DNA of 64,000 nucleotides from an uncultured Chloroflexus sp. Its GTDB lineage: Bacteria > Chloroflexota > Chloroflexia > Chloroflexales > Chloroflexaceae. The stretch's first letter is position 1; every line of letters starts with the position of its first letter. The translations under genes and the position numbers were made by a program. This document shows positions 23,494-25,431 of this stretch, one piece after another. The notes below the pieces were generated by a model. The model was not told the DNA's origin. It searched no databases and saw only the letters and a program-made list of their open reading frames with translations. The DNA is taken from NCBI RefSeq assembly GCF_937129525.1, contig NZ_CAKZNK010000079.1, forward strand, positions 1 through 64,000, read 5' to 3'.

Positions 23494-25431
23494 TTACTTG
23501 GTGAAGAGGTTCATGTCGATGTGCTCCCAGGTCGGGCTGGCAACAACGAAGGCCTGGATTTCACCGCGGTTGCCGGCCTCGATCACGGTCTGCACCTCAG
23601 CGCCAGCGCCCAGCGTTTCGCTACCCAGCACATCAACTTCGCCGGTCAGCAACTGAGCCACCGCCTGATTGGTGTCGGCGATGAACTTGATGATCACGTT
23701 CTTAATCTTGACCTCACCCTTGAAGTAATTGGGATTGGCCTCGAAGGTCATGCTCTGACCCTTCACCCACTCCTTGAGGATGTAGGGGCCGTTGCTCAGA
23801 GGCCGCTCGATGATCTCGGGCAGCGTCTGCCACTCGGCAGCCGGCACATCGGCCAGGCGGCGGCCATCGCTCAGCACCTGATGCGACGGGTAAGCGCCAA
23901 GGCCGGCGCCAGCGAAATAGGTCGGCCACTGCACGCCAGGGTGGAAGGTAACCGTGTATTCGGTATCGCTCTTGAACTCGATATTAGCGATCGAGTTGCA
24001 GTAGGTCAACGAGGTCGCGCCCGAATCCGGATCGCAGTTGATCTTGTAGGCCAGCTCGAAGTCGGCCTGCTTCAGCGGCTCGCCGTCTTCCCAGACAATA
24101 CCCGAAATCCACTTGTCGGTCACGGTCAACTGCTTCATCTTGACAGTGCCGCCCTGGTACGTAATCGTCTCGCCATCGGCAGTCGTAATCTCGACACCCG
24201 GCGCCAGCGGCACAGCTTCACCATCGGTATTCCAGACGATGTCGCCTTCCTTGACCTCAACATCAACATTGGTAGCCCGACCGCTCTCAATCGTTGAGAG
24301 ACCATCGAGACCAACCGGCTGATAGTCATAGTCGTAGCTCGTCACTGCCGGAACGCCCAGCAGGTTAACCGCGATCCGCTGCACTGCCGCGCTCTCGATC
24401 AGCGACCACATCGTCTGCGGCTCCTGAGTGAAACCGAGTACCAGCGTGTCGCCGCCATCGGTCAATTCCCACTCATCGGCGTTGGCCGTGTAATACTCGG
24501 TGGGGTTCGGCTTGAAGTTGAGCAAGCGGTTGGTAGCAGCATACGCTTCAAGTCGGTTGAAGAGCGGCAGGCTCACCATGTCCTTGGTGAACTCTTCCTG
24601 GACGATAGCATACTGGCGAATGCGCTCGGCGCGATCGAGCGTATTATTCGCCGCGATGATGGCGCGGCTGGCCCGCTCGTTGCACCAGCCCATGTAGTTC
24701 TGGCCCTCCCAGTTGTTGGAAGGCAGCGGAATCTGGTTACAGGCGTACAGCGTCTGGCCGCCCGGATCGGCCTGACCAACCCAGGCAAAGGCGCCAAGCT
24801 CAAAGTCGCGTCGGCGGAGGCCTGTGCTGCTGCCGAACCACCATGAGGCTGGCGCGTAAGTCGGGATGACCTGAATACCACAGGCAGCCATCTGGCGAAT
24901 AAAGACCGCCGACCAGGTCTGGCGGAACTGGGCATTTGTGGTTGTGAAGCTCAGCGCCAACGCATCACCATTGGCGTTAGTGCGAACCGGTTCGCCGGTC
25001 CAGCCGGCTTCCTCAAGCAGCGCCTTACCCTTCTCGGGATCGAACGGATAAACGGTGATGTTCTGATTTGCCGCAGCCCAGTGCGCCTTCGGCAGGAATG
25101 TATCCATGAGCAACTGCTCTTGCTGCTCAGGAGTCAGATACGGATACACCGATGCGATCAACTCTGGCCGATTGGTGCAGTAGGCAATCGCCTGGCGGAC
25201 GCGCACATCACTCAAGATCGGGTGCGGAGTCGTATACTGCTCGCTGACAACCTCCTCCGTCACCACCACTGTCTCGACTACCGTCTCGCGCACCGGCTCA
25301 GCGGTTTGCACCACAACAACGGTCTCGCGGACGACTTGGGGTTGAGCTGCGCCACCGCAAGCCGCCAGCATGGGAATCACCATTGCCATCACCATCGCAA
25401 CGGCAACGATTCGCTTGGTAAAGCTAGCCAT
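23494..25431 (-). CDS. Peptide-type ABC transporter solute-binding lipoprotein, apparently circularly permuted
   Basis: A 645-residue family-5 extracellular binding protein. Signal peptide with lipobox LAAC (Cys25), then a Val/Thr/Glu-rich linker to about residue 68. The family-5 elements are all present but in rotated order. The segment normally at the C-terminal half (LSDVRVRQAIAYCTNR, then YPFDPEKGKALLEEAGW, then the region up to about 325) comes first. The normal N-terminal start (TLVLGFTQEPQTMW, about 331) follows, with GIVWEDGEPLKQADFELAY, GPYILKEWVKGQSMTFEANP and TGEVDVLG. The protein ends at WEHIDMNLFTK, exactly where an ordinary member continues into DVRVRQA. Six extra cysteines are scattered over both halves. 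AAGGAGG lies 10 bases before the ATG. It is the first gene of the operon. Confidence 0.9.
   Translation of the reverse strand: MASFTKRIVAVAMVMAMVIPMLAACGGAAQPQVVRETVVVVQTAEPVRETVVETVVVTEEVVSEQYTTPHPILSDVRVRQAIAYCTNRPELIASVYPYLTPEQQEQLLMDTFLPKAHWAAANQNITVYPFDPEKGKALLEEAGWTGEPVRTNANGDALALSFTTTNAQFRQTWSAVFIRQMAACGIQVIPTYAPASWWFGSSTGLRRRDFELGAFAWVGQADPGGQTLYACNQIPLPSNNWEGQNYMGWCNERASRAIIAANNTLDRAERIRQYAIVQEEFTKDMVSLPLFNRLEAYAATNRLLNFKPNPTEYYTANADEWELTDGGDTLVLGFTQEPQTMWSLIESAAVQRIAVNLLGVPAVTSYDYDYQPVGLDGLSTIESGRATNVDVEVKEGDIVWNTDGEAVPLAPGVEITTADGETITYQGGTVKMKQLTVTDKWISGIVWEDGEPLKQADFELAYKINCDPDSGATSLTYCNSIANIEFKSDTEYTVTFHPGVQWPTYFAGAGLGAYPSHQVLSDGRRLADVPAAEWQTLPEIIERPLSNGPYILKEWVKGQSMTFEANPNYFKGEVKIKNVIIKFIADTNQAVAQLLTGEVDVLGSETLGAGAEVQTVIEAGNRGEIQAFVVASPTWEHIDMNLFTK

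Follow-up and report, generated by a model that had tools for sequence, protein, structure and literature searches.

Family-5 solute-binding proteins (SBPs) of structural cluster C, such as Thermus 2d5w, Bacillus subtilis AppA (1xoc) and Escherichia coli DppA (1dpp), are lipoproteins or periplasmic proteins that go with operons of the DppBCDF/OppBCDF type. The two lobes of canonical DppA are connected by two hinge strands, and its residues D408 and R355 (mature numbering) hold the termini of the bound dipeptide (PMC8566422). On the permease side, E. coli DppB carries a periplasmic scoop motif between TM1 and TM2 (residues 32-62), which enters the SBP cleft and contacts both lobes through its two helices (PMC12136057). 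A natural circular permutation has been published for an SBP outside cluster C, the Treponema pallidum protein TpMglB-2 (Tp0684). It is a permuted cluster B protein with a crystal structure, named 'Cluster Bc', and its glucose binding and conformational change are normal (PMC4990184).

The window, by which we mean the whole 64,000-nucleotide stretch of Chloroflexus DNA analysed here, encodes a 645-aa lipoprotein derived by natural circular permutation from a family-5 (cluster C) SBP. Both of its halves are homologous to 2d5w, AppA and DppA, and it shares with them the lipoprotein character and the operon type, but its lobes are swapped, its new termini lie in a hinge loop and its old termini are fused. 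With TpMglB-2 it has in common a natural permutation of an ABC-importer SBP, a lipid anchor and many relatives. TpMglB-2, however, has the cluster B sugar-binding fold, and there part of the N lobe was moved to the C-terminal end with the addition of a fourth crossover, whereas the window protein was cut in the hinge loop and seems to have lost one covalent crossover. The initial annotation knew of no description of such a case. This holds for cluster C in the open PMC literature, in which only TpMglB-2 and engineered cases were found; it does not hold for binding proteins at large, as the TpMglB-2 report shows.

Order of parts in the permuted protein

The gene is a single unbroken open reading frame on the minus strand, with the following parts:

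23494..25431, minus strand: circularly permuted family-5 (cluster C, OppA/DppA-type) solute-binding lipoprotein, 645 aa (open reading frame, PF00496, 2d5w)
25357..25431, minus strand: signal peptide with lipobox LAAC and lipidated Cys25, residues 1-25 (sequence; model helix 5-25)
25234..25356, minus strand: tether of low model confidence, probably disordered, residues ~26-66, VVRETVVVVQTAEPVRETVV... (pLDDT)
24544..25233, minus strand: first folded unit, residues ~67-296, equal to the canonical C-lobe or domain III (2d5w 322-565, DppA 273-463)
25177..25179, minus strand: Cys85, predicted disulfide partner of Cys184 (co-occurrence)
24880..24882, minus strand: Cys184, predicted disulfide partner of Cys85 (co-occurrence)
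24454..24543, minus strand: canonical C-terminal tail going back to the other lobe, residues ~297-326 (NPTEYYTANADEWEL, aligned with the L037 and L048 C-termini)
24442..24468, minus strand: join of the ancestral C- and N-termini, residues ~322-330, ELTDGG/DTL (L048 C-terminus, L037 N-terminal start)
23497..24453, minus strand: second folded unit, residues 327-645, equal to the canonical N-terminal part, domains I and II (2d5w 46-311, PF00496 26-176)
23512..23559, minus strand: terminal long strand, residues 625-640 (...TWEHIDM), now free-ended (model secondary structure, hinge strings)

Cys25 is unchanged throughout a 60-member alignment. The tether that follows is of low-complexity sequence, with a pLDDT below 50 across residues 25-61 of the AF2 model. 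The end of the first unit at residue ~296 is approximate, having been placed from model strand 287-300.

The initial annotation had proposed a circular permutation, and the swapped order that it predicted was found. In the native chain, residues 444-604 match positions 26-176 of the PF00496 profile, while profile positions ~209-358 are matched nearer the N-terminus. A phmmer comparison with 2d5w likewise placed residues 399-643 on chain positions 46-311 and residues 73-308 on positions 322-565. When the protein was doubled, one unbroken PF00496 stretch passed through the native C/N ends (residues 378-742 onto profile 26-358), again as anticipated, and the protein rewritten in canonical order gave a single collinear alignment with 2d5w (72-560 onto 46-565, E 1.6e-33). 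Both lobes are homologous to PF00496 and to solved cluster C members, and the canonical lobe order is absent from the native chain. Pieces that are swapped in the native chain and become collinear after re-ordering are the classical signature of a circular permutation. The split-and-swapped order is confined to this one of the seven PF00496 genes in the window genome. A cluster B (type I) sugar-binding fold received no support, as the structure and family matches of the protein were all of the cluster C peptide/nickel type.

The unpermuted sister gene that the annotation had called for was found at locus L037, in genome G059, which belongs to a relative within the same order. Both halves have their closest relative in its product (~50% and ~35% identity), and the closest relative of the permease is encoded beside it. 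The L037 product is a lipoprotein like the window SBP, but with the ordinary lobe order, and it yields one collinear PF00496 stretch without re-ordering.

Cut, join and possible origin

Permuted proteins start with ...TTPHPILSDVRVRQAI and end with ...TWEHIDMNLFTK. The canonical L037 and L048 proteins carry these start and end elements side by side (HMDFNFNRTDDLTQPSLLADLVIRQAI, LRLNLNDPNDAELKAPHPFLSDVRVRKAI), which places the cut inside a short loop. The new ends thereby correspond to the loop that in canonical relatives connects the HIDxN strand to the next lobe. The true chain end is HIDMNLFTK and not HIDMNL as the annotation had it. The canonical C-terminus (L048: ...ETWTLEDQG, NPTEFLTWNVETWTLEDQG, each up to the stop) is kept and runs straight into the first canonical N-lobe strand, which reads DTLVLGFTQEP in the window SBP and ADTVIIGMSQEPD, ADTVIIGMSQEP in L037. 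Here the earlier reading needed small corrections: LVLGFTQEPQ, the late N-terminal start, begins at residue 330 instead of ~331, and the meeting point of the old termini is at residues ~322-328 instead of ~310-330. Hardly anything was lost where the old termini were joined, and no part of the fold appears to be missing, only the signal and tether of a second copy. Cut and join are closely alike in all permuted proteins, with a TTPHPILSD start, an EHIDxNL end and few residues between the old termini.

These parts suggest how the gene may have arisen. A tandem pair of SBP genes ([N-C][N-C]) would have fused head to tail, after which the outer halves would have been lost and the signal peptide and tether of the first gene kept; the retained and missing parts match what such a fusion and loss would leave. 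On a plasmid of Rhizobium sp. BT04 (L195:1610-4912), two canonical SBP genes lie 42 bp apart at the head of one permease operon, and a permuted query aligns across their boundary. A tandem geometry able to yield a permuted gene therefore occurs in nature. Within Chloroflexota neither a recent duplicate nor an intermediate was found, which keeps the tandem-fusion origin at the level of a proposal. Neighbours of permuted genes in L098, L101, L124 and L132 were considered as recent duplicates and rejected as distant in sequence. In L101, a canonical-order SBP gene stands directly upstream of the permuted one (6458-8542 and 8854-10812); it is only ~28-30% identical to the window SBP and is thus not a recent duplicate.

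Distribution and ancestry in Chloroflexota

The annotation had suggested searching related genomes for the same order. Among the fetched loci we counted 93 distinct permuted open reading frames and 47 canonical ones. The permuted genes belong to Chloroflexota, namely Chloroflexaceae, Roseiflexaceae, Anaerolineae and Caldilineae, with Chloroflexus, Oscillochloris, Chloroploca, Roseiflexus, Litorilinea, Caldilineaceae, Anaerolinea and Bellilinea as named carriers. All congeners have the permuted order (as pieces in G002 and G004), as do most of the family's members and a second family within the order. A match of the permuted kind was present in 43 of 400 genomes of a Chloroflexota sample. A search of 84,980 species genomes gave 234 matches, and the best 80 of these, whose titles were examined, bore Chloroflexota record titles except for one doubtful title (L090). 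No viral relatives of the permuted SBP were found. Plasmid relatives were rejected as weak matches (~22-31% identity), and the one single-piece match that was opened consisted of two tandem canonical SBPs.

The window comes from a 157-contig assembly, and nothing beyond this fragmentation favours an artefact in which assembly or binning joined two rearranged fragments. No sign was found of the mis-assembly that the annotation had named as a possible refutation. The same order runs end to end in congeners, in other families and classes and in independent genomes, some of them complete single-contig chromosomes (e.g. L123, CP059258), so that we consider an artefact to be of negligible probability.

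Two permuted genes are broken by apparent frameshifts, one at residue ~441 in a complete congeneric genome (G004:C1:2870404-2872342) and one near the lobe join in a distant draft genome (L196:1048-3205). In G298 the gene seemed to be divided at the lobe join, but a small indel accounts for its two frames, and fission was rejected in favour of a draft-genome frameshift.

Trees built separately from each half recovered one permuted clade with the canonical L037 as sister, the parent node having a support of 1.0. A single permuted clade with a canonical sister indicates that the permutation probably happened once, a single ancient event being the simplest interpretation. The node that unites the permuted clade without L037 has supports of 0.89 and 0.74, and of 0.25 in the concatenated tree. 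This modest support would in principle permit a reversion in L037, or several independent permutations. Against both stand the cut and join positions, closely alike throughout, and the single clade in both half-trees, and we regard such histories as very improbable. Within the genus, dN/dS of the window SBP against its congeners is 0.041-0.072, which indicates strong purifying selection.

Hinge, operon and permease insert

The AF2 model of the SBP is of high confidence, with a pLDDT of 88 and a pTM of 0.81. Foldseek against the PDB matched it to cluster C proteins about half at a time, with TMq <= 0.31 among the matches listed, so that none of the solved structures listed has this topology. 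We infer that strand 625-640 corresponds to one of the pair of strands that link the lobes in canonical members. As the chain opens just after it, one of the two covalent inter-lobe links would be lost, a reading of the hinge geometry based on model secondary structure and sequence alignment. The protein would keep its fold and flytrap cycle, with the lobes linked covalently by one strand instead of two and each lobe turned into one continuous stretch of chain. From the cut position we further infer that the lipid anchor lies on a different face of the molecule, as the annotation had it; the tether would pull at the hinge edge of the C-lobe and not at the N-lobe.

C85 and C184 occur together in 91 of the 93 permuted proteins and in 5 of the 47 canonical ones, and are jointly present or jointly absent in nearly all proteins compared. 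This pattern suggests a disulfide within the first lobe. The canonical occurrences rule it out as a mark of the permutation.

The permuted gene heads a B-C-D-F operon in practically all loci long enough to judge. In the window, the remaining genes and the relevant parts of DppB are:

22042..23235, minus strand: DppB/OppB-type permease (PF00528), 397 aa (profile match)
23053..23136, minus strand: equivalent of the DppB scoop motif, helices 34-44 and 52-61 (model; equivalent to E. coli DppB 32-62)
22837..23001, minus strand: DppB periplasmic insert, residues ~79-133 (beta-hairpin strands 93-105/111-123 with C96 and C118)
20903..21895, minus strand: DppC/OppC-type permease (profile match)
19859..20875, minus strand: DppD-type ATPase (profile match)
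18810..19808, minus strand: DppF-type ATPase (profile match)

In operons with the permuted SBP, further DppD/DppF-type ATPase genes often lie downstream (L065-L067, L069, L073, L075, L081, L082, L117, L127).

The best NCBIfam match of the SBP is the oligopeptide-binding Opp4A, at a score under its cut-off, and the best PDB matches, 2d5w and AppA, are both oligopeptide binders. DppA D408 aligns with Q220 and R355 with a gap, and the dipeptide-gripping residues are not conserved. Judged from these alignments, a peptide-type substrate is likely and a DppA-like dipeptide specificity is not.

A role outside transport, in which a sensor or another binding protein of the cell surface would have retained its place in the operon, is what the divergent paralogues at L041 and L042 would bring to mind, since these, encoded away from the operon, lost the lipobox and gained a C-terminal beta domain. 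The main lineage, however, retains the lipobox, both lobes and adjoining BCDF genes in practically every complete locus, and we hold such a role to be unlikely. In TpMglB-2, binding and conformational change survive a permutation, which supports the view that the window SBP also works. With high confidence, we regard it as a working SBP that serves a peptide-type (Dpp/Opp) ABC importer and is encoded by a gene that underwent a single permutation early in Chloroflexota evolution.

The L041 and L042 genes are second permuted paralogues of 816 and 820 aa in two congeneric genomes (L041:5032-7482, minus strand; L042:3727-6189, plus strand). Their extra C-terminal domain is beta-rich and ends in RARLYLPLxxR, and no dppBCDF genes were found adjoining these two loci. 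A 381-aa open reading frame at L040:6428-7573 (minus strand) comprises the first lobe, the terminal strand (TVWEHIDFNLQ) and an L041-like C-terminal domain, the rest being deleted. Having no in-frame signal peptide, it is possibly decaying. Its make-up hints at packing of the free terminal strand against the first lobe.

The unusual extracytoplasmic insert that the annotation had noticed in the permease was recovered as DppB residues ~79-133, and it goes strictly with permuted genes. The TM1-TM2 loop measures 71-176 aa in 69/69 permuted-linked permeases and 20-51 aa in all 16 others. The helical scoop of E. coli DppB is also present in the window DppB model, which differs in an additional long beta-hairpin of ~50 residues that follows the scoop and the short third helix. 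C96 and C118 are unchanged in 35 sequences. The permuted-linked DppB clade has as its sister (support 0.985) the L037 DppB, whose loop is 33 aa long and lacks the hairpin. Since L037 combines a canonical SBP with a short DppB loop, permutation and insert both seem to have arisen after the L037 split, probably on one branch.

The hairpin lies beside the scoop that enters the cleft, and we therefore propose that the permuted SBP has gained in it a further element for docking. In this weaker part of the proposal, it would provide an extra contact for the altered protein. The perfect co-occurrence is no more than suggestive of co-evolution; permutation and insert may each have been a single event, in which case the co-occurrence amounts to one data point. 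The adaptive docking part, though not the permutation itself, competes with a neutral reading in which hinge-loop termini tolerate the permutation and drift fixed it after a tandem-gene fusion, the tether position and the insert being irrelevant. Both ends of the new chain fall in a loop, joining the old ends came at no cost, the permuted TpMglB-2 shows normal glucose binding and conformational change (PMC4990184), and canonical relatives of the same phylum, such as L037, are also N-terminal lipoproteins, so that anchoring alone does not explain the permutation. Neutrality fits less well with the strict co-occurrence with a structured, cysteine-conserved insert that the sister operon lacks, and with the 0 reversions in 93 genes, unless L037 counts as one. 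We give the neutral reading a substantial chance, somewhat short of even. More tentatively, these operons may represent a subtype of their own among type I ABC importers, with a single covalent link between the lobes, a lipid tether placed at the hinge and a dedicated, cysteine-stapled DppB hairpin that clamps the opened hinge and so keeps the SBP in register, SBP topology and permease evolving together.

Among transport binding proteins, natural circular permutations seem very rare, and the published case that we found belongs to another structural cluster. The permuted SBP described here is old, has been retained over much of its phylum and in dozens of genera, can be compared with an unpermuted sister and is matched by a change in its permease. 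It allows a direct test of what the two-strand hinge and the tether position contribute to the flytrap cycle, and provides a natural scaffold ready for use in biosensors based on permuted binding proteins. Finally, annotation that is sensitive to the order of parts splits or misreads such permuted genes.
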